From Siphonodentalium dalli (Eukaryota > Mollusca > Scaphopoda > Gadilida > Siphonodentaliidae), in assembly GCA_032622095.1 (NCBI GenBank), contig CP136069.1, forward strand, positions 126,811,450 to 126,875,449: DNA of 64,000 nucleotides. The letters are read 5' to 3'. The notes below the pieces were generated by a model. That model did not search any database. It was not told the DNA's origin and was given only the letters and a program-made list of their open reading frames with translations. How positions within the stretch are numbered: the first letter of the stretch is position 1; every line of letters begins with the position of its first letter. This document shows positions 2,543 to 59,515 of this stretch, piece after piece. Position numbers and translations under genes: made by a program.

Positions 2543-3046
2543 GCAGAATGAGGTCCCCCAGATGGTGAATTTAGCCCGCTGTGTGAGGTAAATGATTCTA
2601 CCAGATGGTGAATTTAGCCCGCTGTGTGAGGTAAATCATTCTACCAGATGGTGAATTTAGCCCGCTGTGTGAGGTAACTCATTCTACCAGATGGTGAATT
2701 TAGCCCGCGGTGTGAGGTAAATCATTCTACCAGATGGTGAATTTAGCCCGCTGTGTGAGGTAAATCATTCTACCAGATGGTGAATTTAGCCCGCTGTGTG
2801 AGGTAAATCATTCTACCAGATGGTGAATTTAGCCCGCTGTGTGAGGTAAATCATTCTACCAGATGCTGAATTTAGCCCGCTGTGTGAGGTAAATCATTCT
2901 ACCAGATGGTGAATTTAGCCCGCTGTGTGAGGTAAATAATTCTACCAGATGGTGAATTTAGCCCGCTGTGTGATGTAAATCATTCTACCAGATGGTGAAT
3001 TTAGCCCGCTGTGTGAGGTAAATCATTCTGCAAATGTCCAGCATCA
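2543..3046 (+). repeat. 43-bp satellite, 11 copies, inside a GCAGAATGAGGTCC-family MITE
   Basis: Units start at 2558 and every 43 bp after that (2601, 2644, ..., 2988), ending at 3030, which makes exactly 11 copies with one to three changes each. The unit core is CCAGATGGTGAATTTAGCCC. The MITE's left terminus (GCAGAATGAGGTCC, 2543) and right terminus (ATTCTGC plus AAATGTCCAGCATCAT, to 3046) still bracket the array. The array therefore appears to have expanded in place from an arm of the transposon. Confidence 0.9.
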
Positions 3047-3988: not shown

Positions 3989-4157
3989 CGGTGGGTAATC
4001 ACGTGGTTTCGAGGTTGGTGAGTACTACGCATTCAAAACGTGCAAACGCACAAAAACATAATATACGAGGAACTGACACAAAACATAGCATTTTGACTGT
4101 TACGAGCATATTCTAATTTATTTTTAAAACAATTTGCTACCTTATTTGTTCGTAAAT

Positions 4158-5848: not shown

Positions 5849-7594
5849 TTGTACAATTTCCATATGAAACGATTTCCGAATGCACAACAGATGAGTTTTC
5901 AGAAAGGTATCAGCTGTTCGATGACGTCATTCATTCTCACGGAATCTGTATCACATGCCAAAGACAATAACTCCAATTTATATGTTGCCTTCATTGACTC
6001 CAAGAAAGCCTTTCATAAAGTATGGCACACTGGCCTCCTGTACAAATTCATTCAGCTCGGATTTTAACCATACCTTGTCATTTTGTTGGAGAACGTCCAT
6101 TCGGATGTGACTAGCAAAGTACTATATGACGGCCGCATGTCGCAAAGTTTCAAAATACTGCAATCTACTCGACAAGGTGGCGTTCTGTCACCTCTCTGCT
6201 ATCTCGTCTTCATAGACGACCTACTTAACGAACTAGCAACTTCTCCATACGGACTAAGAATCTGCAATATCCCATGTGGCGCTCCTACTACTGCCGACGA
6301 CATCGCTCTTCTGTCGCTATCGAAATCCGGTCTCGACTCCTTGTTGAAGTTGAAGTTGAACATATGTGTGAAATATAGCAGGCGGTGGCGATTCGAATTC
6401 TCCTCCACGAAGAGCAAAATTGTTGTATTCAACGAGAATAAAAACTCGTATGACCGCTCGGGAAGGATATGGAGGTTGGGCAATCAAACTATTCAGGAAG
6501 TTACAGAATGTGCCCATCTTGGTTTAAATCAGGACAAGTTTGCGAAGCAGGTCAATTCCGCCTCTTCTGTGTCGACAAAAATGAGGAATAACTTTTTCAA
6601 TATCATGGGTAACAAACTTATGAAATCCACTACACCCATCACCATGACAAATGTCCTCAAAACTGTTGTTCTACCGAGAGCTCTCTATGGTGTCGAGGTG
6701 GTTCCTTTTGATCAAAGTTCCGCCATCACCATTATGAACAAAGCCGCCCGAACATGTCTCAAATACGCACAATCCCTCCCAAAAAGAGCGTCAACTAGGC
6801 TATCGCTAGGTCTTCTTGGATTTCTACCAATTGAATATCAACTGCATATAAAAAAAACTTTGCTTTCTAGGACGTCTTATCCATCTACCGTTCGGCCATC
6901 AATTACCATTACGACTGTTTGTCCTGAAAGCACACCTGTACAGACTATACAATCGCTCCAGTGGTTTTGTACAGGAAATGTTCTCCATATTAGCCAAATA
7001 CGATCTTTTGAACTATTTGAACGACTACCTGGACATTGGGGTCTTCCCAAAACTGTCAACGCGGATAACTCTTGTGAAGGCAGCTGTCAGGGGAACGTTC
7101 ATTTCCTCGTGGCAGACCAAAGTTTCATCCGATCCATCCTTGCGAATTCTGTGGAAAGTTCACCCTAATCCCCTATCAAACTGGGCAGTCTGGAAACTTC
7201 TCCATGGAAACGCTCACATGTTGAAATATCTCAAAAACTTAGTACTGCTTCTCAACAGGACTACCTATGCCAACAATTTAGTGTGTCATCTCTGCAGCGA
7301 AGTGTACTCGAACGAAATCGACCACGCCATGTTCGTATGCTCTTCTCCAGCCGCACTCATTATTAGAAATTCTTTTTGGGAAGGGATTATCTCTCGTTAC
7401 CCGAATATTTTCACCTTGCGTCGTTAGCCAGAGATGACCTGGTAGCAACCCTCCTCTGAAGTTCTCTGGAAACCCTAACAGAACACATATATCACTGCCT
7501 CAAGGAACTAGTACTATATTCTGCGAAGTTCCTGTACGTTCTCAGCACAATGATAAGGAATGGCGTACAGCAACCCGTGTCACGTCCATTGTAA
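5849..7594 (+). pseudogene. Non-LTR retrotransposon (LINE) reverse transcriptase, 5'-truncated and broken
   Basis: Encodes the middle and C-terminal part of a LINE ORF2-type reverse transcriptase. Visible motifs are motif A (VAFIDSKKAFHKVW, about 5981-6033), motif B (RQGGVLSPLCYLVFIDDLL, about 6170-6226), a catalytic DD in TTADDIALLS (about 6289-6318, with T where Y or F is usual), and a late Cys/His cluster CHLCS..HAMFVC (about 7288-7341). Reading continues to about 7594. It is disabled by an in-frame TAA at 6065, a +1 shift near 6860 and further breaks after 7400. The endonuclease and 5' half are missing. The motif order suggests the broad Jockey/CR1/L2 grouping, but the clade is unresolved. 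Confidence 0.9.
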
Positions 7595-14110: not shown

Positions 14111-14298
14111 CATTTATCGTTGTGCTAGCCATTACATAAAACAATTTAATCTAAACTGATATAAATGGGGGGGAAATGGTGAAATATGCCCAGTGTTTTT
14201 TACTTTCGTAGCCATTTTGTCCCTATTTTGGGAACCTGATGGCCTCATTTCTGCTAAAATGGGCGCTAGTGGTTCATATATTGCATCTAATGAGTATT

Positions 14299-14395
14299 GT
14301 TGTTTCTGCATGGTGTTTTTCCGCGTCGAATAACACTAAAATAAGCTTATCCAATTTATTCCGTGTTCAAAACTCCAATGACCACTAATTATCAA
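14299..14395. repeat. Outer inverted repeat, left arm
   Basis: Contains CTGCATGGTGTTTTTCCGCG, GAATAACACTAAAATAAG and CCAATTTATTCCGTGTTCAA. The reverse complement lies at 18417-18508 with about 90 percent identity by eye. Together they enclose the 300-bp-armed element, so the whole of 14.3-18.5 kb is a nested inverted structure. Between this arm and the inner arm lie about 520 bp of diverged CGCCATTTTGAA-type repeat. Confidence 0.8.
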
Positions 14396-15685
14396 ACATT
14401 GATTTGAAATAGTATATGTTGGCACAAATGGTCATTTAAACTAAATTTCTTATAAATGGAAACGATCTGGTGAAATTTTCGGTCGCCATTTTGAATTTTG
14501 ACAATCGAATTGTACATGAAATGACATACGTCTGTCATGACAACAATAATAGTTTGTTTATGTTGCATGTTCCTGCCATCTGTATACCTCTAATTTAAAT
14601 GCCATTTAATAAGGAACGGTAAATCATACATAATAACCACAAATAGGACCCTTTTTTCAAAATGCTCTAGAAAATTTTCCCCAAAGCTGATTTTAGCGGA
14701 TTTTGTATATGACAACAATTTGTTCTAGGTCCAATGCTTCAATGACCAGACTATTATGGCATTGTGAATTTCATCTTGGGATATAGGACTATTTAGGCAC
14801 GAATTGTCAAATCAGATATAGTCTTTGGTTCGGTTTTGGTTCGCTATTATCGCAGCTCGTTGCACGTTGCGTCTACACAATGTGAAAGCAAGTAATAGGT
14901 CTGCGTGAGACATCAGGAGCTTGGAATTTGGTCAAAATTCCTCTTTTATTGGCGGAACCACCACCCGGGACCACAGGTCACGGAAGGAACGAAACAAAAA
15001 ATTGTTGCCACCCATTTTGAACTCAACTGTATTCCTACAAAAAATATATTTTCACTAAAAACTGTTGGTACCTCTTACACCTTAGATGCCAATCTACAAC
15101 ATTCCATAGGTATATTTTTCCAGTTCTTCGAAAACCTCACTTTATTTCGGTAATGTATTGTAAATTCACCAACGAACACAAATGTGCAACATCTCCATCA
15201 CCTGTTTTAGAATCGGAATGACAAACGGCACAAAACCATTTTTCCGGAATAACAAAGTCGGAACGAAATAAAATCGAAACCTAAACTTAAAGCCCGCGAA
15301 AGTGCGTGCGGTTTTCGAACTTAGGCGCCAGAAAACTTAAATCGGTTTATGTTTGCGTCATACTATGCGCGTTTTTTGAAGATCTAATCCTGATGTTTTG
15401 TGTATTTTCCACTGTATTTTCCTGAAAATTTCTGTATTTTTCTGTCTTCTGCTGTTATCATCTCATGAAAATGACGACTACCCAAGAAGATATTCTTCAT
15501 TTGACTGAATGGTAATTAGTACAAATATTTTAAATATAATTTATTTCTATTTATGGCACGACCACGTGGTATTGTTTTTTTCTTCTTGTTTTATGTTCGT
15601 TATGTACCGGTAGGCCTATGTACTACTTGACTTTGTAATGCTACTGGTTGCAATGATTGGTCATAAGGGGACCATAACTCTCTAG

Positions 15686-15818
<133 letters not shown>

Positions 15819-16635
15819 GAGCTTGTGTCGCGCTCCGTTGTATAAGCCTAAAATATCCATCATATAATAGTAATAGTAATCAACCCACTGATTACTGGTC
15901 GAATATCACGAAGTAGAAGAAAAAGAAGATATATTGACTCACGGGGATGCCTGGTATATATGCCTATGCATGAAGCGATTCCTTTGTGCGTTTTGGTGCA
16001 GATTCGTTGCCAGAATATCTTAATTATTTCCACATAAAATGCTGTTTTTTTACGAGTTCTGACGAACAAATATATGTCTTAGTTGATGAGAGAAGACATT
16101 TTTCTTGAGTTAGGTAACGATATTGGCCATGCATATATAGAACGAGTGTTTAGTTTCGCGAAATTCAAAATTGTCAATGTAGGGTACAAAAACTCGCCAT
16201 TAATATGCCAAATACAGTAACAAAATGTAATAAGATTCTTTAATGTAAGAGCACAAAATTATCCTGCGTATCCTTTACGGTATACGTTTTATTTGTGCGT
16301 TTGCAAGTTGTAATGCAAACTGGTTTACCGAATAACTAGTTTATAAATTTGAGTTAGTGATAAACTCGCTAACATAAATTTTATTTAATAAGCAACTATA
16401 AGTATTGTCAATTGTACCGGTACCCAGGATCTATAAATAGTAAACGTCACTCGTGACTCGTGTGTCGTAACGAATCAGCACCAAAACTCTCAAAGAATGG
16501 CTTTATGCATATGATTATATAGCTTGTGCTCATGAATTGGAAATTAAATTTTTAAATTCAAGACAGCTAGCCACCATCGGCATTGTTTTTCTCAAAATTA
16601 AAAATACCAAAAAAATATTAAAAACATTACTTAAT

Positions 16636-17136
16636 GTAACTTTCGCTGATGGGGTCATTGTCACAAGGCTCCGCGATCCGATCACATTCGTAGCCACCTT
16701 TTTTAATCGATCACAAATGTAGCCAGCTTTTCTATGGCGATCACATTTGTAGTCAGCTTTTCATATTCAGGCGAGCCTCAATGAACACGATCAGGTTAGT
16801 CTAATTTTTCTGAGTTGATGTATGAACAACAACGTGAATTTAGTTTTGATATTAGTTCATCTAATAACCTGATGTTTCTGATCAATGTCGTTGGAATGCT
16901 CGAATTATATTCCAATATAAGTTGATAAACGAAGTCAGTTTTTGAGCATGACGTCGACATTTTAGTCACGAACGTGATGACATCATATTTCGGGCAATAT
17001 AAACCACGAATTAGAAAAGCTGGCTACGAATGTGATCGCCGGTGAAAAAAAGCTGGCTACATTTGTGATCCATTTAAAAAGCTGGCTACGAATGTGACCG
17101 GAGCCTTGTGACAATGACCCCATCGGCGTAACTTTC
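16636..17136. mobile_element. Mutator-like MITE nested in the 3.4-kb element
   Basis: The element (16645-17127) has inverted ends of about 115 bp starting GCTGATGGGGTCATTGTCAC. Perfect GTAACTTTC copies flank it at 16636-16644 and 17128-17136. Each arm contains three tandem variants of GATCACATTCGTAGCCAGCT, so the arms are themselves repetitive. The interior (about 230 bp) has no ORF. Confidence 0.88.
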
Positions 17137-17935
17137 ATGGTCGATGAAACGAGTGGCTGAAATCCGACGGCGGCCATGTTTCTATGACTAATTTCACGAC
17201 GATCGCACCAATGCTACAGTCTCTAGCAATGATTCGTTCTCATTTTGATACCAATGTCATGACCCATGAACAATTTCACGATGATCGGTGCATCGACATA
17301 GGCCTAGGCTCTAGCTAGGCAGTGTTATTGATTTAATTATATATGCAGTGTTATCGCCGAAATCCGACGGCGGCCATGTTTCTTTGAGAATTCACACCAA
17401 AATGACTCGTTCCCATCTACATGTCAATGTCAAATTTAATTATGATCGGACCAACACTGCGACCTCTTGCCCGTGCTAAATGATGCAATTTTGAAATCCA
17501 AGATGGCTGCAAATAAGCCCAAAATGACTCGGTGTCGTCTATATATCAATGTCATGATCGATGAAAAATTTCGTGATGATAGGTGCATCGACACAGGCTC
17601 TAGGCTGTGTTATTGATACAGATTTATCTAGTATTATCACTGAAATCGAAGATGGCCAATGGCGGCCATGGTTCTTGGAGGATTCACACCAAAATGACTC
17701 GGTCCCATCTACATGTCAATGTAAACCTCCATGTCAAATTTAATGCTGATCAGATAAACACTGATTCTTCTAGCCCATGCTAAAGGATGCAATTTTGAAA
17801 TCCAAGATGGCTGCCAGTGGCCATGTTTTTATGCAAATGACCCCAAAATGATTCGTTCCCATTTAGACGCCAATGTCATCATCCATCAAAAAGTTCATGA
17901 TGATCAGTGCATCGGTACGGTCATGTATTAAACGT
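17137..17935 (+). repeat. Degenerate satellite with GGCGGCCATG boxes
   Basis: About five diverged units of 130-200 bp carry GAAATCCGACGGCGGCCATG or CCAAGATGGCTGC, then CCAAAATGACTCGTTCCCAT, CATCTACATGTCAATGT and TTTCATGATGATCAG. The same unit forms the array at 55.56-56.12 kb. Small plus-strand ORFs here are incidental. Confidence 0.8.
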
Positions 17936-18416
17936 GTAATCAGCAGCTATCTTCTAAATTATAAACGGTACTGTTATGCTATCCGACTCCGGATCATAGT
18001 TTTAAAGTTTCCGCATATTTCGGTACTAGTTCCGCTACTTCGATTCTAAAACAGGTGATGGAGATGTTGCACTTTTGTGTTCGTTGGTGAATTTACAATA
18101 CATTACCGAAATAAAGTGAGGTTTTCGAAGAACTGGAAAATATACCTATGGAATGTTTTAGATTGGCATCTAAGGTGTAAGAGGTATCAACAGTTTTTAG
18201 TGAAAATTATTTTTTTGTAGGAATACAGTTGAGTTCAAAATGGGTGGCAACAATTTTTTGTTTCGTTCCTTCCGTGACCTGTGGTCCCGGGTGGTGGTTC
18301 CGCCAATAAAAGAGGGGTTTTTACCCAAATTCCAAGCTCCTTTGGTGAGACGTCGCGTGACGTTGGCCTACTTTCGACCAACCAACGTCATGTATTCACG
18401 CTCGACAGTGTAGTGT

Positions 18417-18508
18417 GGTCATGGGAGTTTTGAACACGGAATAAATTGGATAAGATTATTTTGGTGTTATTCGACACGGAAAAACACCATGCAGGAACAA
18501 CATACCCA
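18417..18508. repeat. Outer inverted repeat, right arm
   Basis: Reverse complement of 14299-14395. Includes GTTTTGAACACGGAATAAAT and AAAACACCATGCAGGAACAA. Similarity to the left side continues weakly to about 18580 (TTTGGAAAATTCTCTA). Confidence 0.8.
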
Positions 18509-27086: not shown

Positions 27087-27294
27087 TTAACCCTTTGAGT
27101 GCCAGGGGCCGATCTCATCGGCCCTAAACCTACAAAATAAGTCTGTTAAAGAATATAAGAATAAATTATTGTTAGGCCAATGCATTCTCTTATATATGCG
27201 AGGCGACCTATGGTCGACTCGCATATATAAGAGAATGCATTGGCACACGGTATATGGGTTGATACAAAAATCGACCTGGCACTCAAAGGGTTAA
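27087..27294. mobile_element. piggyBac-like MITE with nested hairpin
   Basis: The ends are TTAACCCTTTGAGTGCCAGG (27087) and its complement ending at 27294. Inside, at 27176-27244, is a near-perfect hairpin GCCAATGCATTCTCTTATAT..GCATTGGC around GTCGACC. The same hairpin occurs twice inside the larger element at 41.03-41.60 kb. No ORF. Confidence 0.85.
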
Positions 27295-27329
27295 GCGAAT
27301 ATTATAAGGTGTATTTTGGAGTGCAAACT

Positions 27330-27912
27330 ACTGTTTCTGCCATTTAATTTTTTTTCGCTTGCTGCGTTTCGTGTTTTTCGCTTGCTTCGTTTGGTTTCTT
27401 CGAGAAGGAACCGAAATATTCTTAATTGTTTCGCTTCCTTCGCCATGAAGGAACCGAAGCATGCGAAAAAATCAAACGAAGCAAGCGAAAAAGTCAAACG
27501 AGGAAAGCGAAAAAACATTATTGTTTTTTCGCTTGCTTCGTTTTGTTTTTTTTTAGTTTTCGGCGGTTCATTCGCATGCTTCGCGAAGTACCCGAATGAA
27601 CCGCCGAAACCGAAACTGTTTTCTTGGTTGTTGTTGGGTTTCGGAGGTTCCTTCGCATGCTTCGGATACAAGCAAAGGAACCGACGAACGCGAAAAAAAC
27701 AACAAAATGTCGCACGAAGGAACCGAAATACCAAACTAAGCAAGCGAAATAACAATGATGTTTTTTCGCTTTCGTCGTTTGATTTTTTCGCATGCTTCGT
27801 TTGATTTTTTCGCTTCCTTCGGTTCCTTCGCGGCGAAATAATCTCAATTATTTAGGTTCCTTCGTCGCGAAGGAAGGGAAAAAACCAAAATGAAGCAAGC
27901 GAAGGAAGCGAA
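27330..27912. repeat. Self-complementary GAAGCAAGCG / CGCTTGCTTC island
   Basis: Blocks of TTTTTTCGCTTGCTTCG alternate with CGAAGCAAGCGAAAAA and variants (GAAGGAACCGAA / TTCGGTTCCTTC), switching strand at least six times. The region can fold into many alternative hairpins. Long ORFs on both strands (27291-27755, 27316-27804, 27518-27847) are lysine/phenylalanine-rich translations of the repeat and are not called as genes. Confidence 0.85.
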
Positions 27913-27999: not shown

Positions 28000-28866
28000 G
28001 CAAGAGTGTGTGGTTGAGCTAGCATCTAAAGTGGAATGCGTGTGTGTGGGCTTGCGTGTGTGTGTAATTGAGCTAGCATATAAAGTGGAATGTGTGTTGT
28101 TGAGTTGGCATTAACAGCTCAAGTGGAAGGCGTGTATGGTTCAGCAAACGTGTAAGGTTTGTATGTGATTGCGCTAGCATTAACGTCTAAAGTGGAACGT
28201 GTATGTGTGTGATTGGGCTAGCATCAAGATATATAGTGGAATTTGTGTGATTGAGATAGCATCATAATCTACCGTGGATGGTGTGTGTGGGGGAGTGAGG
28301 GGGTGTGTGTGTGTGTGTGTGATTTAGCTAGCATTATAACATGTAACGTGGAGTGGACGAAGTGTGTGGATAAGTTAGCATTAGCATCTAAAGTGGAATG
28401 CTTGTTGTTAAGTTGGCATTAACGGCTCAAGTGGAAGGTGTGTGTGGTTCAGCTAACATGCAAGGTTAGGGTGTGTTTGCGCTAGCATTGACGTCTAAAG
28501 AGGAACGTGTATGTGATTGAGCTAGCATCTTAAGTGGAATGTGTGTTGTTGGGTTGGCATTAACAGCTCAAGTGGAAGATGTGTGTGGTTCAGCTAACGT
28601 GCAAGGTTTGTATGCGATTGCGCTATCATTAACGTCTAAAGTGGAATGTGTGTGTGTGTGACTGGGCGAGCATCCCAGTGGACTTTGTGTGATTGAGATA
28701 GCATCAGAATCTACCGTGGTAGGTGTGTGTGATTTAGCTAGAATTATAACATGTAACGTGGAAGGAGTGTGTGGATGAGTTAGCATTAGCATCTAATGTG
28801 GAAGTGTGTGGTTGAGTTAGCATTAACATCTAACGCGGAATTGTGTGATTGAGTTAGGATCAGATT
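28000..28866 (+). repeat. GT-rich minisatellite with higher-order structure
   Basis: The basic unit of about 40 bp is like GTGTGATTGAGCTAGCATTA then ACATCTAAAGTGGAATG. Sets of units recur as longer blocks: ATTATAACATGTAACGTGG appears at about 28331 and 28743, and GAGTTGGCATTAACAGCTCA-type blocks at about 28100, 28412 and 28550. So a higher-order period of about 410 bp is superimposed. Confidence 0.85.
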
Positions 28867-29185
28867 TTTTGTTTGTTTTATAACTTGTTATTTTTGTATT
28901 ATATTATACATTTATATGCAGAAAAATATCTGACAACGTGGCAAGCCGTTTTCACATTTTTGATTGATTTAGACTTAAGTCCAATTATTTGGACTTAAGT
29001 CCAAATAATTGGACTTAAGTCCAAATGAATTGGACTTAAGTCCAACTGAATTGGACTTAAGTCCAATTAGCGAATTGATTTGGACTTAAGTCCAAATCAA
29101 TTGGACTTAAGTCCAATTATTGGACTTAAGTCCAAATAATTGGACTTAAGTCCATATAATTGGACTTAAGTCCAATTATTTGGAC

Positions 29186-29452
29186 TTAAGTCCAATTAGT
29201 GAATTGATTTGGACTTAAGTCCAATTCATTTGGACTTAAGTCCAATTCATCTGGTTTGAAACGATAGTCCCCTTCTTTGTAATGGTATATTCCTGCAAGT
29301 TTTGATTGACAGTCAAACTCCGTACTAACCAGGGCATTCCTGACTCCAAGACTAACTCCGTACGTCCCCTTTGCCACGTGGCTTGTTTTCGGCATGCCGA
29401 GATTGAAAATGTTTCGAATCCGAATTGGCATCTTAATAAATGCTAACTGCAT
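29186..29452 (-). CDS. Hypothetical ORF in the palindromic element's core (b)
   Basis: 88-codon frame; start ATG at 29452. The first about 66 residues (MQLAFIKMPIRIRNIFNLGM ... HYKEGDYRF) come from unique core sequence and have ordinary amino-acid composition. The last about 20 are the translated palindrome (repeating ELDLSPN). A possible acceptor (CATTCATGCATGCAG) immediately precedes the frame at about 29448, so it may be a second exon. No family recognised. Confidence 0.3.
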   Translation of the reverse strand: MQLAFIKMPIRIRNIFNLGMPKTSHVAKGTYGVSLGVRNALVSTEFDCQSKLAGIYHYKEGDYRFKPDELDLSPNELDLSPNQFTNWT

Positions 29453-29486
29453 GCATGAATGAAGTAAAATTAATTCACGACTTGAT

Positions 29487-29687
29487 TCAATTGTTATTTG
29501 ACAGCATGTAGTGTAGGCTACACGCAGTTTCGTTTATTGCATTTACTAAGTGTCTTATTTGTATAATTTGCTCATTTCCATCATCATATGTTAAAAATCG
29601 TTCCGAACTTCTTACAACACGGGCTATTGTTGATAGGATCTGGTCCACATCGAGCTGATTCATTATATATGTTGAGAAAGGTAACAA
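29487..29687 (-). CDS. Hypothetical ORF in the palindromic element's core (a)
   Basis: 66 codons, or 58 from the inner ATG (MNQLDVDQILSTIARVVRSS ... YMLSNNN). It has a mixed, protein-like composition and overlaps in another frame the end of a further open stretch at 29663-29851. Its order and strand agree with the next ORF downstream. No motif recognised. It could be a decayed gene of the element or chance. Confidence 0.3.
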   Translation of the reverse strand: MLPFSTYIMNQLDVDQILSTIARVVRSSERFLTYDDGNEQIIQIRHLVNAINETACSLHYMLSNNN

Positions 29688-30147
29688 TTAACAAGATCAA
29701 CAAGAATTAGACCCAAATGTAAACGGCCATTTTCCCACAACTCCGCCCTATGAGCAAAACCAGACCTGCTTAATATCTGATGGGGGTGTTTCTTATACAG
29801 ATGAATTGGACTTAAGTCCAAATGAATCGTACTTAAGTCCAAATACCACATAATTGTGAATTCGGCGAGGAATTGGACTTAAGTCCAAATAGATGAAAAT
29901 ATCGATATTTGGACTTAAGTCCAAATCAATTGGACTTAAGTCCAATTCCTCGCCGAATTCACAATTATGTGGTATTTGGACTTAAGTCCAATTCGCTATT
30001 TGGACTTAAGTCCAATTATTTTGACTTAAGTCCAATTATTTGGACTTAAGTCCAAATAATTGGACTTAAGTCTAAATCAATCGAAAATGTGAAAACGGCT
30101 TGCCATAGAAGAGATGTATAATGTAGAACTAATTCTTAATAAATACA

Positions 30148-30640
30148 CTTGAATAAATACACTTGGCTCATCACGCCAATGGGTTTGGAATAATAGACCA
30201 CTCGAATATATACATTTGGCTCATGCCAATGGGTTTGGAATAATAGACCATTCGAATGATTACACGTGCCTCGCGTCAATGTGTTTGGAATAATAGACCA
30301 TTCGAATGTATACATGTGCCTCACGCCAATGGGTTTTGGAATAATAGAGATTCAAATGTGTATACATTAGCATCACGTCGATGGGTTTGGAATAATAGAT
30401 CATTTGAATGTATACATTTGGTTCACGTCAATGTGCATGTTTGGATAACAGACCATTCGAATGTATACATGTGCCTCGCGTCAATGCATGGGCTTGGAAT
30501 AATAGACCATTCGAATGTATACATGTGCCTCACGTCAATGTGTTCGGAATAATAGACCATTCGAATGTACACATGTGCCTCGCGTCAATGCATGGGCTTG
30601 GAATAATAGACCATTCGAATGTATACATGTATAGCTGGTG
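30148..30640 (+). repeat. Tandem repeat of about 52 bp, nine to ten copies
   Basis: The unit is GGAATAATAGACCATTCGAA, TGTATACATGTGCCTCACG, TCAATGGGTTT. GAATAATAGA occurs near 30188, 30237, 30288, 30340, 30391, 30494, 30546 and 30600, with a variant (ATAACAGACC) near 30445. Later units contain an extra CATG. ORFs on both strands are repeat translations. Confidence 0.9.
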
Positions 30641-35293: not shown

Positions 35294-35907
35294 ATTATGT
35301 GGGTTTACCAAGATTTCTCAATGTACACAAAATGGTATAATGTAAAGAATAACTCCTTAAGACTAGCAATCCTACACTTTTTTCAGTCCATGTGAAAATT
35401 AAAATAGACATATTCCCTTGGATTGCAATAAACATATATATATATATACGACAGAGGGCTCTGATAAGGTCGAAGTGACCTGGAAATCCAAAAACGTCCC
35501 GCATGTGGCTGCTTGAACAGGCAGTGAGTTACGTGCAGGACAATAAGCGCATCACAATACATAAGCCCGCTTTGTGCGGGGGGGGGGGGGTGGGGTGACC
35601 AGTGTCACCACCGATAGTGGGACCTGATAAGGGGCATGCCGGAGTGACATGGAATTCCCAAAAATTACCCGCATATGGCTGTCTGAACAGGCAGCTACCC
35701 ACGTGCAGGCCGCTAAGCGCGCAAATTACAAGAAACAAAAGCGCCTATACATTGAATAAAAACGAAGCGAAAGTGAAGGAATATGTTCCCAAATCTCGCA
35801 GAACGATCAAGTCTTTATTAGCGTAGACATGCGTTCGGTGTTGTTTCGGATACATGTGCAAAATATTCAGAGCACCATCATGTGATTTATGATAGAAATT
35901 ATCTAGT

Positions 35908-36167
35908 TTAACCCTTTCTGTACTATACTCGTTGATGAGTACATGTTGTTCCCTAGGAAATATTCAGATAATAAGCTCAACAAACGGCCATTAGTGAACT
36001 TATTATCCAAACATTTCCCACCAAATGAATAGCAATCCTTCTGCACTGTATTATCTGTTCGCTTGTCTGGAATCTGCTTAAATTTCTTGATCAAAATGAA
36101 TAATAGACCATTCCAATGTTTACTTTTAAAACTGAATGGGATAAACCATTTAGTAGAGAAAGGGTTA
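35908..36167 (+). mobile_element. piggyBac-like MITE, array copy 1
   Basis: Intact ends TTAACCCTTTCTGTACTATA and TAGTAGAGAAAGGGTTAA, 260 bp. The inner hairpin around AAACGGCC is formed by ATTCAGATAATAAG and CTTATTATCC. Confidence 0.85.
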
Positions 36168-36836
36168 AGTCACAAAATTAACCGAATTGAGGATGGGAAA
36201 TTGTCTTAAATGCAAAACACTTTTTCCAGAAAGTGAGCAATGTTGTCAGTGACCCTGCAATGCGATTCCGATACACAAGTGTTCTGTTGTTTTTTTTTTC
36301 AGTGCATGTGAAATTTCAAATAGACATATTCCTTTGGCAAATGATGAGCAATAAGTTTTACATTTAAGCATATATATGCGACATAGGGCCCTGATAAGGT
36401 CCATGTCGAAGTGACCTGGAAATCCAAAAACGTCCCGCATGTGGCTGCTTGAACAGGCAGTGAGTTACGTGCAGGACAATAAGCGCATCACAGTACATAA
36501 GCCCGCTTTATGCGGGGGGGGGGGGTGACCAATGTCACCACCGATAGTGGGACCTGATAAGGGGCATGCCGGAGTGACATGGAATTCCCAAAAATTACCC
36601 GCATATGGCTGTCTGAACAGGCAGCGACCCACGTGCAGGCCGCTAAGCGCGCAAATTACAAGGAACAAAAGCGCCTATACATTGAAGAAAAACGAAGCGA
36701 AAGTGAAGAATCTGTTCCCAAAACTCGCAGAACGATCAAGTATTTATTAGCGTAGACATGCGTTCGGTGTTGTTGCGGATCCATGTGCAAAATATTCAGA
36801 GCACCATCATGTGATTTATGATAGAAATTATCTAGT

Positions 36837-37097
36837 TTAACCCTTTCTGTACTATACTCGTTGATGAGTACATGTTGTTCCCTAGGAAATATTCAGATAA
36901 TAAGCTCAACAAACGGCCATTAGTGAACTTATTATCCAAACATTTCCCACCAAATGAATAGCAATCCTTCTGCACTGTATTATCTGTTCGCTTGTCTGGA
37001 ATCTGCTTAAATTTCTTGATCAAAATGAATAATAGACCATTCCAATGTTTACTTTTAAAACTGAATGGGATAAACCATTTAGTAGAGAAAGGGTTAA
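36837..37097 (+). mobile_element. piggyBac-like MITE, array copy 2
   Basis: Same ends and interior as the copy 929 bp upstream. Carried along by the tandem array. Confidence 0.85.
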
Positions 37098-37773
37098 GTA
37101 ACAAAATTAACCGAATTGAGGATGGGAAATTGTCTTAAATGCAAAACACTTTTTCCAGAAAGTGAGCAAAGTTGTCAGTGACCCTGCAATGCGATTCCGA
37201 TACACAAGTGTTCTGTTGTTTTTTTTTCAGTGCATGTGAAATTTCAAATAGACATATTCCTTTGGCAAATGATGAGCAATAAGTTTTACATTTAAGCATA
37301 TATATGCGAGGGCCCTGATAAGGTCCATGTCGAAGTGACCTGGAAATCCAAAAACGTCCCGCATGTGGCTGCTTGAACAGGCAGTGAGTTACACGCAGGA
37401 CAATAAGCGCATCACAGTACATAAGCCCGCTTTATGCGGGGGGGGGGGGGGGGTGGGGGGGGTGACCAATGTCACCACCGATAGTGGGACCTGATAAGGG
37501 GCATGCCGGAGTGACATGGAATTCCCAAAAATTACCCGCATATGGCTGTCTGAACAGGCAGCGACCCACGTGCAGGCCGCTAAGCGCGCAAATTACAAGA
37601 AACAAAAGCGCCTATACATTGAAGAAAAACGAAACGAAAGTGAAGAATCTGTTCCCAAAACTCGCAGAACGATCAAGTATTTATTAGCGTAGACATGCGT
37701 TCGGTGTTGTTGCGGATCCATGTGCAAAATATTCAGAGCACCATCTTGTGGTTTATGATAGAAATGATCTAGT

Positions 37774-38048
37774 TTAACCCTTTCTGTATATACTACTTGT
37801 TGACGAGTACATGTTGTTCCCTCAGGAAATGTTCAGATAATAAGTCCAACAAACGGCCATTTAATAGTGAACTTATTATCAAAACATTTCCCACCAAATG
37901 AATAGCAATCCTTCTGTACTGTATTATCTGTTCGCTTCTCTGGCGTCTGCTTAAATTTCTTGAACATGCCTCAAAATGAATAATAGACCATTCCAATGTT
38001 TACTTTTAAAACTGAATGGGATAAACCATTTAGTAGAGAAAGGGTTAA
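37774..38048 (+). mobile_element. piggyBac-like MITE, array copy 3
   Basis: As the other array copies but with small insertions and more differences (TGACGAGTACATG, CATGCCTCAAAATG). Confidence 0.83.
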
Positions 38049-46300: not shown

Positions 46301-49300
46301 ACTATTGCGATTAGTTTATCGAAAATAAATCAGTCTTCATAATTGTCATGCACTGGCCATTCATGCAAAATTCCAGGTTTGCATCATAAAGTGAACGATT
46401 CTGTTACTATTTTACACTTAGCCGTCTTATATATTTATATTTGACCTGCAAAGCGCAGAGACATATTGGTGCATAAATATTAGATAAAATGTCATTATGT
46501 TCGACTATAACGCCTATAATCTACTAAACTATCGATTAATTATGTGCAATATCGAGATTAGTTATCGTGGGTGCGCACTGGAGCTTATTATTTTTGCTCG
46601 TTTTCCACCTGAGATACAGACCAATGTTACTCTGTAGTAATACAAAACTATTAGTTAAAATTCCTCAGTGATAAAGGGTATGTCACTATGTGGCATGCCA
46701 CGCCAGCCGTTGAGGCATGCCAATATCCCATAATATGTCAAATATAGCGAATTATCGAAATATGCGCGAATTATGAAATAAGAAATTATTTTTATTAACT
46801 AAATAACGGAGATATTTGAAGAAGTGTTTTTGACGAAATAACGGGCATATTTGGAGAAGTTTTTTTAAAGAGCGTACCCCAAACCTCCGCCAAGCCCACC
46901 CACCCAAGAGAAGAATTTTACTTATATTTCACCACAGTTGATCTATTGTGGTGTTGTTATTTCTAATACAAATCGCCGTTATTTCGTAAATATACATTCT
47001 TTATAGAGTTATTACCCTGAATCAAAATTTTAGTTGCAAATGTCAAGTTTGTGAGGTAAAATCCAATATTTATGATAGTATGCAATGTATGGAAGGCAGA
47101 ACAGCCAATTTTATTCATCAACTACAACTTGTAAGCGATTGCAGGGCACAATGGGGCAATATCCACCATTTTCCATATTTTGGCGGCCATTTTGAGCCAA
47201 AGTAACAACTTTTTTTCCTATAAGCTATGAGTTGGAATATCCCTGGGTAATGGTATGCCTCAATTACATTCCACAGTTCTGCTCATTCCTTGTTGAAATA
47301 TGACTAGAAAGTAGAATGAGGGATTGGAAGGAGATTGCGCTCCAAGAATTGCTTTTTTCATTACCCCAATGATAAGTTAATATAAAAATACAAAAATAAT
47401 GTCCCAATCCTTAACCAGTTCCGAACAGCAGAAACTGATATAGAAGATTTTAGTGATAAAGCGTCATATTTTCCACTTCCGGCGGCCATTTTGGCGGCCA
47501 TTTTGAATATATGAAATTTATTCATACTACAAATAAGGAGTACTCTATTATCAATAGAATGACATATCGCAAGACTTAATGCCTCATAAACTCCCTGAAT
47601 GATTGTGAATTAAAATTTACCAGGTAAGATATTCAATTTTGGCGGCCATCTTGGATTCAAGGCCATCGAAACATGTGAACAATGACTATCTATATACATC
47701 CATGTGCTCGTGAAATGTTATAGAAAACTGCCCAATACAGACTATAAGCGGTAACTCTTTCATGTTGAGGATGATCACACCTACCTCCGAAACAATACCT
47801 GCCGGATAAGTGAGAACATCTCCTTCAATTTTCTCTCATTTTATAGAATATGGATTAACCTTAATATCCAAATCATATATACATGAGTAGTACAATCCAC
47901 CAGTCTACCAGTCGAATGCAGAATTCTACCCTGCGATCGCTTATCTGGCAACTTTTGACTGCAGAACTATCCCATGTAAATGATGATGTATTAAACAATT
48001 TCTCCTCCAATGGTATCAGAAAACAGTTATATGCTGGTATCTCACTCATCTCATTTGCATCTTTTTCAAAGTCGAGGTAATGACTAGTTGTCATTTTTTA
48101 AAGTGCATGATACATAGCGTTGCGATCACCAATATACATGTTTGTACATGTCATGACATCACGAGGTACAAATCTGCGTTCTACTGGTAGACAATGAGTG
48201 AATGACCATTTTAGTCATAATAATCTAAACTAAGTTACCAAGCACCTTCTCGTGAATTGTATGCTCCGGTGTTTTTTTCGGTTTCCGGTCAAACCGAGTT
48301 GTTGTCCGGTTGGGGTAGATTTGATTTTTCTGGGGGGGGGGGCAAATGATCAGTGGATGGAAAAAAACTGCAGTTTTTGCTGTTTTGGGGGGGGGGGTAC
48401 CCAAACCGAAGACAAAAGTTTTTCCCACCCTGTGTCTGCAGTTTTTTTCCGCCCCCCCCCCCCCCGCCCCAATAAGGATTTTATCTAAACAAAATCTCAG
48501 TAGTTTGTTGAAAATCGCTATAAAATGAAAATGTGTGAAATAAATCCGTCTATCGGACAAAAAACATAGTCGGCAAAAATCCGCACAGGGGAGGGTGGCC
48601 ATAATTATGGTGGCTCACGGTCTATAAGTGCACATCAGCCTCGCGTAATATAACGTGACCTTGGGTCATTGTTGTAGTGTTTTCTACATAAAATGCACAC
48701 GTGTTGGTCATATTTGTAAGTTTGTGTTATTCTGTTCATCAATCAAACAACCATGCATTTCTTTCGGCCCCTGTTCAATACTAAAATCAATATGTGACCC
48801 ATGATCAATTTTATCCTTGTTAGAACTAAAAAAAATTATGCCTTTATTAGAACTTCTAAAGAAAATTAGTTTCGAATTGAAGCAGATGGCAATTACTTTA
48901 TTTACCAGGTAAGATATTCAATTTTGGCGGCCATCTTGGATTCAAGGCCATCGAAACATGTGAACAATGACTATCTATATACATCCATGTGCTCGTGAAA
49001 TGTTATAGAAAACTGCCCAATACAGACTATAAGCGGTAACTCTTTCATGTTGAGGATGATCACACCTACCTCCGAAACAATACCTGCCGGATAAGTGAGA
49101 ACATCTCCTTCAATTTTCTCTCATTTTATAGAATATGGATTAACCTTAATATCCAAATCATATATACATGAGTAGTACAATCCACCAGTCTACCAGTCGA
49201 ATGCAGAATTCTACCCTGCGATCGCTTATCTGGCAACTTTTGACTGCAGAACTATCGCATGTAAATGATGATGTATTAAACAATTTCTCCTCCAATGGTA

Positions 49301-52300
49301 TCAGAAAACAGTTATATGCTGGTATCTCACTCATCTCATTTGCATCTTTTTCAAAGTCGAGGTAATGACTAGTTGTCATTTTTTAAAGTGCATGATACAT
49401 AGCGTTGCGATCACCAATATACATGTTTGTACATGTCATGACATCACGAGGTACAAATCTGCGTTCTACTGGTAGACAATGAGTGAATGACCATTTTAGT
49501 CATAATAATCTAAACTAAGTTACCAAGCACCTTCTCGTGAATTGTATGCTCCGGTGTTTTTTTTCGGTTTCCGGTCAAACCGAGTTATTGTCCGGTTGGG
49601 GTAGATTTGATTTTTCTGGGGGGGGGGGGGGGGCAAATGATCAGTGGATGGAAAAAAAACTGCAGTTTTTGCTGTTTTGGGGGGGGGGGGGGTACCCAAA
49701 CCGAAGACAAAAGTTTTTTCCACCCTGTGTCTGCAGTTTTTTTTCCGCCCCCCCCCCCCCCCCGCCCCAATAAGGATTTTATCTAAACAAAATCTCAGTA
49801 GTTTGTTGAAAATCGCTATAAAATGAAAATGTGTGAAATAAATCCGTCTATCGGACAAAAAACATAGTCGGCAAAAATCCGCACAGGGGAGGGTGGCCGT
49901 AATTATGGTGGCTCACGGTCTATAACTTATAAGTGCACATCAGCCTCGCGTAATATAACGTGACCTTGGGTCATTGTTGTAGTGTTTTCTACATAAAATG
50001 CACACGTGTTGGTCATATTTGTAAGTTTGTGTTATTCTGTTCATCAATCAAACAACCATGCATTTCTTTCGGCCCCTGTTCAATACTAAAATCAATATGT
50101 GACCCATGATCAATTTTATCCTTGTTAGAACTAAAAAAAATTATGCCTTTATTAGAACTTCTAAAGAAAATTAGTATCGAATTGAAGCAGATGGCAATTA
50201 TTTGCGGCAACATTTCAATCTCGTACAAACTGAAACCGGTGTACGTGTATGCATATATGCCTACATGCATTGTAAATGCACACGGTGTTGTGCTTCATCG
50301 GTCGTCTGTTGATAACAATAATATAATAATATTCAACTTCAAAGATGTTGGAAACTTACCCGGTTTGCACTTCAATGAACTTGCGACTGGGACTGTTTAC
50401 ATGGACTGTGACGTAGTGGAACAGTACACTGAGTGTGGGGATATACATGTAGAAATAAAAGCATGTTGGGAGAATAATAAGCCCTCATTCGTCTTTAGCT
50501 GTCATGAAACCGGGCCATATACTGGCGTACATTCAAAGATCGGGGTTGACAAGCATTAATAACACTACGCGAAATGCCGAACTATGTCTTATATGCGGAA
50601 GCGCCGCGAGCACGTCATAATGTCTAAGTTGGTCACGCGTCTCATGCATGCGATTTCTTGGCAACGAAATTCTTTCGCTTTAACCATTCTCCGCCGCGAC
50701 ACATGAATTGTTATCTTGCCCATGATAAACAAAATGATGATACTCATGAAACTTGTCTACAATTTTCCGCTCTGTTCTACACTCTATAAAACTGAACAAA
50801 AAGTTTTGCACAGAGATAAATCATTATTAATGCTTAATTGATTGAGAATGAAGAACACTTCCTTATATGCGCTGTGCAACGTACACATACATGTGGTAAG
50901 ATGCGTAAACACTTCTTTGGTGATATAGATATGACTAGTGATAAATTTATTGCATTGAATGATGGCCAAAAATTCCAATACATAATGCAAAACAACGAGC
51001 TTCATACATGCAACATAATCTGCAACATGGGCTGGACATTTTTCAAAGAAAGATCGAATTCTACTGATATAATTATAGTTACCCGTAGGCCTATACAGTA
51101 TACATATACTATGTTGAATCATTGATGACAGTGTTAAATATATTTGTTATTTTGACATCTCGTGTGGACGTTTTATGTCACTAATCTAGCTATCACCTTA
51201 AAGGGGTACTGTACGCCAAATGTTGTTGTTGGTTTCTATAGTCTCCGAGTCGGAGTATAAGGTAACAATTTTTCCATTATTTGAATGTCTGTTGAGTACG
51301 AAGTAGTGTTACGGATGGCAACTTTACCGGAATGCAAAAATACAAATTGTCGTTGTCGAGTAATTTTTGTACAGTTTTCAACCAAATGAATCAAATACAA
51401 GTTATATTATATGCATACTAGTCCCATATAATCATTTAAGTTATTGTATCGTCGCGAGCCAGTGAGTGGCTTGGATGTTCTCCCCGTATCATCATAATAT
51501 TTTAAGCGATCGTGTGTGCGATCGGTTTAACAATCCAGTATCCCTTTGATTACGGAAAATCGTAATTTAATTGACGCCATTTTATGGCTCCAGTCATAAA
51601 TTCAATTTATATCAAATTATTAACTTTTAAATTATTAAATTTTAAGATAGCCTATTAACCTGGGCGTTTACAGAATACATCTTCGACTCAAATTACTTAT
51701 ATTATGTTTCTATATATTATCGATATTAGATCATTGTTGTCACCGGAAATTTAATGAAAATGGCGTACAGTACCCCTTTAAAATATCTATATCTAATAAA
51801 CTAACTATCTATATTATATTAGATTATGGTAGAAGATCACCAAAAACAAAAGCTCAGAAAAACGGAAAATTCTAACAAAAATAGGGCCTAGCTATATCAT
51901 TTTTATGAGAGAAACACTCATTTCGTATCCTCTATATATGTAGGGCTATATATATATGTGCTGATATAACGTATATATTAATACTCACTGTCCAATTCAA
52001 CTGAGCCAAGACTGTCTGTTGGAGAATTCCGGCTGTTTTCCTTACAACCATAGAATTCGTCATTGGCCGATGTGTCGTCGATTCCAACTTTATTTCGACC
52101 CCTGACACATCTTAGCTTCAAATAAAAAAGAAAAGAGAACGATAAAGTGGGCCTAGTCGTGTGTGGGTGTCGCGACAGCCAGAGGGTGGGGTATCTGACC
52201 CCACCCCCCCCCCCCCACCCACCCGCCCACTAACACACTTTGTCAAAGTGTTTTAAAAAAAATTTAAATGTTTAAAATAATTACAATTTAATACCTGACA

Positions 52301-57734: not shown

Positions 57735-58375
57735 TACGTTGGCATAATGTCGGCACGGTTGGCATTAGGTTTGGTTGGGTTGACGTTGTTGGTCCTTGGT
57801 TGGCCCAACGTATTCCTCCCAACCGTTGGAAATATAACGTTGGCCCAACGTTGTGCCAATGCGAACATGCCAACGGAATTATCTGCAGTAAATTGGTTGG
57901 GTTGGCGTGGTTGGCCCTTGGTTGGCCCAACGTATTCCTCCCAACCGTTGGAAATATAACGTTGGCCCCCAACGTTGAGCCATCGCGAACATGCCAACGG
58001 AATTATCTGCAGTAAATTGGTTGGGTTGGCGTGGTTGGCCTTTGGTTGGCCCAACGTATTCCTCCAAACCGTTGGAAATATAACGTTGGCCAACGTTGTG
58101 CCCATCGCGAACATGCCAACGGAATTATCTGCAGTAAATTGGTTGGGTTGGTGTGGTTGGGCCTTGGTTGGCCCAACGTATTCATCCCAACCGTTGAAAG
58201 TATAACGTTGGGCCAACGCCAACACGAAAATGGAATTTACTGTACACATCACATTGGGGTTTGGGTTTACGTTGTTGGCCCTTGGTTGACCCCAATTAAG
58301 GTATTCCTCCCATGCAACAGTTGGATTTATAACGTTGGTCCAATGTTGGGTCAACGCTAACGGCCTCATGGTAGT
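57735..58375 (+). repeat. Satellite of about 122 bp, five units, rich in CCAACGTTGG palindromes
   Basis: TGGCCCAACGTATTC falls at 57801, 57923, 58047 and 58169, with a variant at about 58287. The unit also has CCAACCGTTGGAAATATAAC, GTTGGCCCAACGTTG and ATGCCAACGGAATTATCTGC. A 225-codon minus-strand ORF (57734-58411) and several plus ORFs are satellite translations. Confidence 0.93.
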
Positions 58376-58499
58376 CCAATTACATATAGCGTACATACAT
58401 ATAAATCTCAACGATATGCCGATACTTTATGTTCCGTAAACACACGTACAATCATTGCTGACACAATATATGCTACGATATGTCACAAAATACGTTGGA

Positions 58500-58550
58500 T
58501 GGTGTCGGTTGGTATATCGTTGGCCCAACGTAATGCCAACGTAGATGACG
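58500..58550 (+). repeat. Isolated CCAACGTTGG-type fragment
   Basis: GTTGGCCCAACGTAATGCCA near 58520, separate from the main array. Confidence 0.6.
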
Positions 58551-58740
58551 TAGAAAGCTCTGACGTCAAACTCTACGCGCATGCACACAACGGATCAGGC
58601 GTCTGCTTTTCTTATTGCGCGCTTTGTTCTGGTTCTCGTTCAGTGTTGCTGCTGGTATTGATTTGAGCAAATAAAGGATTCAGTTTCTTTAATTTGGAAT
58701 TCAAGGATTTGTTCGTTCTGTAGATGCTGCCATCGGTCAT

Positions 58741-58934
58741 CGAGTCGCTATCCGAGGTAGGTTTACGTTTGTGAGAAACTACTCTTTTGTGTAAAACTAA
58801 TTATTTTTCCCAATATTTTTCTCGGAATCAAAAAGTTTCCCTAATATTTGCACGGCGTATATATAAGTTATAGCGGAGAATACTTATTGACATGCATAGT
58901 AGTTTCTCACAAACTTGCATCAGACAGCGACATG
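58741..58934. mobile_element. MITE-like inverted repeat, about 42-bp arms
   Basis: CGAGTCGCTATCCGAGGTAG, GTTTGTGAGAAACTACT is mirrored by AGTAGTTTCTCACAAAC..CAGACAGCGACATG. 194 bp. Confidence 0.65.
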
Positions 58935-58989
58935 GTGGCTGAAGGTGGTAACTGAATTATGAACGGATTATTGGATGCCACAAAAAAAA

Positions 58990-59167
58990 TACAAAATTCC
59001 CCAACGTTATGCCAACCAATTTAGTTTGAGTTCCCAACGTTGTCCCTCCGTTGGGTCAACGTTATGCCATCCAAAGGGTTTCGTTTCCAACGTTGGGCCA
59101 ACGCTCTGTATATGTCATCCAACGTTGGCCCAACATAGGCCCAATGCGTTGGCCCAACGTTGACACA
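58990..59167 (+). repeat. CCAACGTTGGGCCAACG cluster
   Basis: At least six copies of CCAACGTT(G/A)(T/G).CC(A/C)-type palindrome, same motif as the 57.7-58.4 kb array but with irregular spacing. Confidence 0.8.
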
Positions 59168-59515
59168 ATGAGCAACATTACGTTGGTCCAAGTGGTTGTG
59201 GGTGGTGAGGAGATATGTGAGGAAGTCGAGCAAGGTAGCGTGGTCAGTGAAAGTTGTGAGCAGAGTGGTGTGCGCGTCGATGTGACTGTTGTTGATGAGG
59301 ACATAGTTGATGGAAGCTGGGTTGAACACGATTATTGCAAGAATTATGAGTCGAGCATGCACCAAGGTTCACAGGTAGAGGTTGCCGCGGAAATACGGGG
59401 CGAGCAGATATGTAAGAAGACGGTGGTTGAGCAAGGTGTTGCGTTAAATATTCTAACTGCTTTTGCTGGCCGAAAAAATGTAATGACATTTCTTGGTATA
59501 ATTATGATGAAGTGA
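59168..59515 (+). CDS. Uncharacterised ORF, 115 residues
   Basis: Begins MSNITLVQVVVGGEEICEEV at the edge of the satellite. GC content and codon use differ from the surroundings. Two internal segments resemble each other, GGEEICEEVEQGSVV (about residues 12-26) and RGEQICKKTVVEQGVA, separated by an acidic part (VDEDIVDGSWVEHDYC). No known domain, signal peptide or membrane segment. It may be one exon of a larger gene, since CACAG/GTAGAG and AAAAAT/GTAATG donors occur inside. Confidence 0.4.
   Translation: MSNITLVQVVVGGEEICEEVEQGSVVSESCEQSGVRVDVTVVDEDIVDGSWVEHDYCKNYESSMHQGSQVEVAAEIRGEQICKKTVVEQGVALNILTAFAGRKNVMTFLGIIMMK

Follow-up and report, generated by a model that had tools for sequence, protein, structure and literature searches.

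The window, that is the whole analysed stretch of 64,000 nucleotides, contains a foldback-type element in which long inverted arms of internal repeats are arranged around a core. It is almost certainly a non-autonomous copy belonging to a family of DNA transposons. On balance, the family is best explained as a recently amplified, apparently non-autonomous cut-and-paste transposon, most likely of the IS3EU/GingerRoot group, whose foldback-type arms multiply a putative symmetric binding site, most likely for the transposase. An earlier note, made from the letters of the window, had called the stretch a foldback element, and this description is borne out by conserved outer ends (TATGGCAAGCC), many dispersed copies and ends, near-identical shared cores and 6-bp target-site duplications, which together support the transposon. 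The unusual part is the palindromic unit; the general foldback plan is already known. The layout of the window element is given in Table 1.

Table 1. Features of the window element, in positions of the window
Feature	Position	Strand	Remark
Whole element including terminal dinucleotides	28937..30107	.	left CG (most other copies TA), right TA
Left flank TGACAA	28931..28936	.	expected position of target-site duplication; no match to right flank
Left terminal segment TGGCAAGCCGTTTTCACATTTTTGATTGATTT	28939..28970	+	
Left array, 13 palindromic units	28971..29243	.	steps 19-21 bp except two of 29
Core, 543 bp (0.54 kb)	29255..29797	.	matches cores of other copies
Right array, 10 palindromic units	29808..30073	.	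steps 20-46
Inverted duplication within right arm	29824..29994	.	29824-29888 vs 29930-29994, 97% complementary
Right terminal segment	30074..30105	-	inverted copy of left terminal segment TGGCAAGCCGTTTTCACATTTTTGATTGATTT
Right flank GAAGAG	30108..30113	.	differs from left flank at 4/6 letters

The arms of the window element are filled by the 12-bp palindrome GGACTTAAGTCC. Its exact form occurs 19 times in the window, all within 28991-30053, and 0 times in 100 shuffles, while up to one mismatch yields 23 sites between 28971 and 30073 (19 exact and 4 mismatched). The left arm holds 12 exact and 1 mismatched palindromes, and the right arm 7 exact and 3 mismatched. The earlier count of 23 palindromes split into 13 and 10 was reproduced, with the correction that 4 of the 23 are not identical to the rest and have one mismatch. 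Similarly, the 12-bp palindrome is real, but the repeating unit is better given as the 20-mer AWTTGGACTTAAGTCCAAWT, which is the consensus of 702 units from 36 elements; the tandem period in the window arrays is 20-21 bp. The limits of 28937-30108 proposed for the element were very close, and the end dinucleotides of other copies place the right limit one letter further in. Larger inverted ends had also been claimed and are present, as 28939-29026 pairs with 30018-30105 over the outer 88 nt at 98% complementarity. The outermost palindromes of both arms carry the same base change, which argues for a common origin of the arms. The inner edges of the two arms match again and the middles differ, the units there having apparently been gained, lost and rearranged. 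The spacers (21 in total) had been described as AT only, which does not hold: six 9-nt spacers contain one or two G or C, and a 34-nt spacer, present twice and in opposite senses within the inverted duplication of the right arm, has GC-rich stretches in inverted order. Further spacers include two of 17 nt, one of 12 nt and one of 24 nt. Nothing in Rfam matched the window.

To describe the family, the host genome of 2.23 Gb in 9 contigs was searched with the palindrome and with the end of the element. The exact palindrome was found at 4068 places compared to 99 for the reversed control, and the 22-nt end TGGCAAGCCGTTTTCACATTTT, with up to 2 mismatches, at 898 places (467 on the plus and 431 on the minus strand) compared to 0 for the control. 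The copies studied come from 100 listed matches of the 22-nt end on contig C1 and part of C2; since all of these match exactly, the conservation of those 22 positions among the listed copies is by construction. Around paired ends 36 stretches were taken, two of them being halves of one pair of about 12 kb. The elements are 0.6-4.5 kb in size, apart from this single 11.9-kb pair. Among the palindrome matches listed, the first 50 sites form 6 clusters, of which 5 adjoin family ends; the sixth cluster (L007) has no family end for about 1.5 kb around it, even with as many as 5 mismatches allowed. The search for palindrome clusters and their boundaries that the earlier note had suggested thus placed conserved family ends beside most clusters examined. 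Twelve ends which have no listed partner were also inspected, and the number of palindromes (up to one mismatch) within 1.5 kb was 0 in three of them, one in three and two in one; some partnerless ends keep diverged units. Outside the host, TTGGACTTAAGTCCAA occurred in 3 contigs of IMG/VR, one site each, which was taken as chance, while 20 nt of the family end gave 0 matches in IMG/VR and two neighbouring palindromes gave 0 in GTDB; these are viral and prokaryotic sets, respectively, in which relatives are hardly expected.

Other copies end two bases further out, with TATGGCAAG...CTTGCCATA. The terminal TA is present on the right in 37/37 rows and on the left in 34/37, the exceptions being the window copy (CG) and L039 and L065 (TG). 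Beyond the 22-nt query, each of positions 26-34 agrees with the consensus in 59 to 71 of the 72 ends. Target-site duplications of 6 bp are exact in 29 of the 37 end pairs, the window included, and have at most one mismatch in 32, where the end pairs are partly non-independent (L064 and L066 share both flanks and two rows of L068 share one end) and an exact 6-mer is expected by chance about once in 4000 at even composition and at a somewhat higher rate where the DNA is AT-rich. For the 12-kb pair, which was scored separately, the duplication is exact too (CAGTCC). The sequences of the duplications vary between copies, showing no fixed target. The window copy has CG in place of TA on the left and no duplication, and either its left edge was rearranged or its flank may have changed after insertion. 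The flanking letters of L040 and L061 are reverse complements, suggesting that the two are one insertion that was copied. L064 (C1:226.53 Mb) and L066 (C1:228.55 Mb) lie about 2 Mb from each other and contain one and the same insertion, with shared flanks that run in opposite orientation; an inverted segmental duplication is the probable cause. In L067, two family right ends (L067:2755 and L067:4027) are each followed by TTAGAC, the 6-mer which precedes the left end. When the joined flanks of 29 copies were compared with the sampled loci and the window for empty sites, no spanning match was present among the matches listed.

The cores were compared in the 22 of 36 elements, window included, that have all three segments, and the divergence over 231 pairs had a mean of 0.85%, a median of 0.80% and a maximum of 2.4%; the remaining 14 were left out, some for lack of a segment and others for their divergence, which reaches about 14% within one segment. 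L044, L045, L060 and L070 are identical to the window copy over the compared core letters. The family is young, since its cores are nearly identical (median 0.8%), and it appears to have been active recently and to include older branches. An ordinary satellite or minisatellite that became inverted by accident would account for the tandem period of 20-21 bp, but it is very improbable in view of the conserved outer ends, the common core, the dispersed copies and the 6-bp duplications; that one copy, the window's, has no duplication is not enough to save it. The earlier note had named clusters forming a satellite with neither conserved ends nor core as the outcome that would speak against a foldback element; conserved ends and shared cores were found.

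Conservation inside the unit is uneven. The number of units per element ranges from 2 to 31, and a looser scan collected 712 units of 57 distinct types. Among the 115 deviations in these types, 64 fall in GG/CC, 25 in the outer TT/AA and 26 in the central ACTTAAGT, while a uniform distribution predicts 29, 29 and 57.5, respectively (p = 6e-12); the distinct types are related and hence not independent, and G:C pairs may mutate faster. Mutability of G:C pairs alone is nevertheless insufficient, because just 11 deviations fall on the other G:C position of the half-unit. The position before TT (W column) is occupied by T 712 times, A 706 times and G and C 3 times each. When all units are counted, TT/AA deviates in 0.8 and 1.5% and GG/CC in 8 and 9%; among the distinct types, the outer TT/AA stays near the average and is not clearly conserved, which counts against the favoured explanation. 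A held centre and A/T position together with a loose GG/CC could result from a protein that makes contacts at the centre and in the AT-rich flank. The pattern is unlike pure homogenisation, as this alone should treat all positions of the unit alike, and also unlike selection for hairpins, as a hairpin should prize GG/CC. The suggestion of a protein-binding array in the earlier note gains indirect support from this unevenness, and the binding is putative. On the conservation pattern, the symmetry of the unit and the example of Galileo, the chances seem about even that the units are docking sites for a protein dimer, with a transposase as the first candidate. Against this, homogenisation could yield much of the similarity between units.

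The palindromes could instead be structural by-products of a real transposon, in which units that readily form hairpins increase in number through strand switching in the course of replication or repair, and no protein is bound. The folds of both arms are much more stable than those of shuffled sequence (left arm -124.3 vs -27.2 +/- 3.8 kcal/mol, right arm -122.6 vs -25.0 +/- 3.4 kcal/mol). The inverted duplication of the right arm and the wide range of unit numbers also agree with such copying, and a stem-loop mechanism which makes tandem repeats from MITEs is cited in the available part of PMC8268682. The spacers fit this account too. Of the 616 that could be scored, 525 show a direction, reading either AATT..ATTT or the reverse complement of this, and both directions are mixed in the window arrays, as would follow from inversion or strand switching between adjacent palindromes. 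Pure copying, however, is not expected to free GG/CC and yet hold ACTTAAGT and a strict A/T position, and hairpin stability would favour retention of GG/CC, which makes this account a rather weak competitor of the docking-site reading. Another competitor is that the palindromes serve as sites for a DNA-binding protein of the host, a homeodomain or other dimeric factor, which gives the element an advantage in expression, chromatin or insertion. Such a factor would suit a symmetric site that is unevenly conserved and has its half-site, ACTT/AAGT, next to AT-rich DNA. The excess of exact sites over the control and the position of 5 of the 6 listed clusters beside family ends oppose it; as most clusters examined adjoin family ends, the motif looks owned by the family and not like a widespread host motif, and a host protein is considered unlikely.

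Helical phasing was dropped as proof of protein binding. Steps of 19-21 bp make up 406 of 619 unit steps, most of the other steps are out of phase, and 191 of the 619, of 24, 29, 36 and 46 bp, break the helical phase, a point against the favoured explanation. The array itself may go back to a duplicated inner portion of the terminal segment, given that GATTGATTTAGACTTAAG, which adjoins the outer end, is similar to GAATTGATTTGGACTTAAG within the array. A similar origin of arrays was suggested for Tetris in the accessible text of PMC4079207.

Membership in IS3EU/GingerRoot, a superfamily of eukaryotic DNA transposons with an integrase-related DDE transposase, is favoured with good confidence and draws on the ends and the duplications. 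According to the consulted portion of PMC10045372, IS3EU elements have TA..TA termini and usually 6-bp duplications, and those of rust fungi are described in the excerpt of PMC12730594 with 6-bp duplications, inverted ends of over 30 bp and TAYGG..CCRTA. The present family has TA..TA ends with TATGG..CCATA fitting TAYGG..CCRTA, inverted ends longer than 30 bp and 6-bp duplications (29/37 exact; absent in the window copy). It differs from IS3EU as described in these excerpts in that arrays of palindromic units fill the long arms, and no transposase was recognised in the frames examined. A link between tandem repeats and IS3EU has been noted before, as the seen part of PMC8268682 labels two satellites found in oysters (690 and 129 bp) as IS3EU-related. 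The MuDR and IS256 groups produce duplications of 4-10 bp, as given in the portion of PMC10045372 cited above. This range overlaps the 6 bp observed here and weakens the placement, although the likeness to MuDR is not a feature specific to it.

Among the known foldback designs, Galileo of the P superfamily in Drosophila has long and internally repetitive inverted arms like those found here, and the THAP domain of its transposase binds repeats within these arms, as stated in the available text of PMC3688188. Its ends are unrelated, and in the present family each 20-bp unit is itself a palindrome. Membership in the P superfamily or Galileo was rejected, as the duplication is 6 bp here compared to about 8 bp for the P superfamily in the excerpt of PMC3706591. 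Tetris, a foldback element of Drosophila virilis which seeded satellite arrays and for which the autonomous partner was not found (PMC4079207, in part), is also apparently non-autonomous, and the tandem repeats in its foldback arms vary in number, but its units, by the same excerpt, are of ~220 bp and those here of 20 bp. The statement of the earlier note that no described family has such an architecture is therefore too strong for the general plan, given the similar arms of Galileo and Tetris. Within the literature collection searched, of 5.39 million entries, no paper was found for GGACTTAAGTCC, and among foldback and palindromic subterminal designs none was recognised as equivalent at the level of titles and opening lines of abstracts.

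In CACTA/En-Spm elements, TnpA binds many short copies of a subterminal motif near both ends, and the motifs are asymmetric. The present family shares the many short motifs near both ends, with a protein-binding role that is putative here; it differs in that the CACTA/En-Spm motifs are asymmetric, subterminal and not placed in long inverted arms. Polinton/Maverick elements have AG..CT ends and a large coding interior. Membership there was rejected, as the ends are TA..TA and the elements have the modest sizes given above (0.6-4.5 kb and one 11.9-kb pair); Polinton/Maverick also makes a 6-bp duplication (PMC10045372, consulted portion). Dada makes duplications of 6-7 bp, a range that includes the 6 bp seen here, but it has no terminal inverted repeats and targets specific small RNA genes, a definition that PMC3706591, in the excerpt, bases on U6 elements and on elements whose ends can be defined. 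It was excluded as well, since inverted ends are present here and the duplications vary by copy without a fixed target.

An autonomous copy was sought in the frames of the window core, L065, L068 and L034 by Pfam and in larger copies by lists of long reading frames. No integrase domain and no recognisable transposase was found by Pfam in the frames of these four, nor was a copy coding for a MuDR-type DDE or a THAP-domain transposase identified among them. That neither an autonomous copy nor an integrase-type frame appeared among the frames examined tells against the preferred explanation. The minus-strand frames tried in the window core gave no Pfam family above cut-off. A captured host exon in the core, considered for the protein-like reverse frame LVLESGMPWLVRSLTVNQNLQEYTITKKGTIVSNQ, was rejected as no Pfam cut-off was reached and PDB gave no match to E 10. 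L034 was likewise rejected as an autonomous copy; its zinc-finger-like frame falls below the Pfam cut-offs and it appears to be a truncated copy with other repeats inserted or abutting. A GDSL-like frame at L068:1151-1717, within a compound copy, also stays below the Pfam cut-off (26.2 vs 32.9 bits).

The copy L065 deserves separate consideration. It is 4.37 kb long, has the exact duplication GTGATG and contains broken frames of 260, 207, 192 and 171 aa, the last of which enters the core and is identical to the window over 50 aa at its end. As these frames reach no Pfam cut-off separately or read through, L065 could be the autonomous parent with an undescribed transposase, and the short copies, including that of the window, its deletion derivatives. 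This parentage is doubtful. The core of L065 is 0-0.3% from its closest short copies, the short junction is also present in L058, L068, L073 and L051, which are 8-15% diverged beside it, the junction letters having been inspected in L055 and L073, and the extra stretch of 3.19 kb is without inverted ends and is bounded by a CTAA repeat. Insertion or capture of the 3.19 kb at CTAA in a short copy is simpler, and clearly to be preferred. The broken frames at L065:310-2577 (755 letters read through), inside this stretch, may stem from the capture of part of an undescribed protein gene. The 171-aa piece had a best E of 0.98 against PDB and no relative among viral contigs, and the 192-aa piece had no relative among GTDB contigs.

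In the proposed mechanism, a transposase made elsewhere (in trans) would recognise the outer ~34 bp for cleavage, cut at the ends and insert the element with a 6-bp stagger, the cutting and the stagger following from the 6-bp duplications which flank most copies examined. Each 20-bp unit would act as a docking site for a symmetric protein dimer, most likely the transposase, and the array would raise the local concentration of transposase and help to bring the two ends together. Strand switching, or recombination among neighbours that tend to form hairpins, could duplicate, remove or invert units and leave the sites intact, and as each unit reads the same both ways, the length of the array would drift freely. 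The very stable folding of the single-stranded arms would make copying errors likely and could explain the spread of 2 to 31 units. Two points weigh on this explanation as a whole: its superfamily placement comes from ends and duplications alone, and the window copy, with its left CG and without duplication, may be rearranged.

A further proposal is offered tentatively. The self-palindromic 20-bp unit may hold a whole transposase dimer, so that the array is directionless, only the outer ~34 bp mark the end, and non-autonomous copies compete through longer arrays. If true, lengthening of arrays would be a form of competition for transposase, eased by hairpin-mediated strand switching. The role of long repetitive foldback arms is unsettled, as discussed in the part of PMC3688188 consulted, and arrays of 2 to 31 units in copies with intact duplications provide a natural series for testing unit number against mobility and palindromes against array growth. 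With this family, the IS3EU/GingerRoot group may in addition gain a member of unusual structure.

Several other repeats were observed in the window. Directly to the right of the element, 30171-30630 is a 50-bp repeat array holding the recurring palindromes CATTCGAATG and ATGTATACAT, and to its left, 28000-28860 is a GTGTG-rich minisatellite with periods of 37 to 141 bp. An inverted repeat of 22-bp units lies at 27294-27851 (27439-27550 vs 27726-27837, 89%) and has long open frames on both strands. A large inverted-repeat structure at 14294-18505 has arms of 303 bp (96.7%) and 92 bp (93.5%) and encloses a smaller inverted pair at 16634-17138. Within 57771-59170, a 122-bp repeat is present in 3.7 copies at 57771-58218, its consensus holding inverted motifs of the AACGTTGG type, with CCAACGTTGG at 59087 and 59119 and AACGTTGGCCAACGTT at 58082. 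A tandem array of a 43-bp unit occupies 2558-3029 (11 copies, 97% matches). Near-identical reading frames at 48228-48614 and 49523-49912, about 1.3 kb apart, suggest a duplication, and those repeated every ~0.9 kb in 35298-37832 (e.g. 35748, 36659 and 37596) suggest a large tandem repeat. A reverse-transcriptase fragment at 6068-7168 (PF00078, E 3.8e-08) is probably a LINE-type remnant.
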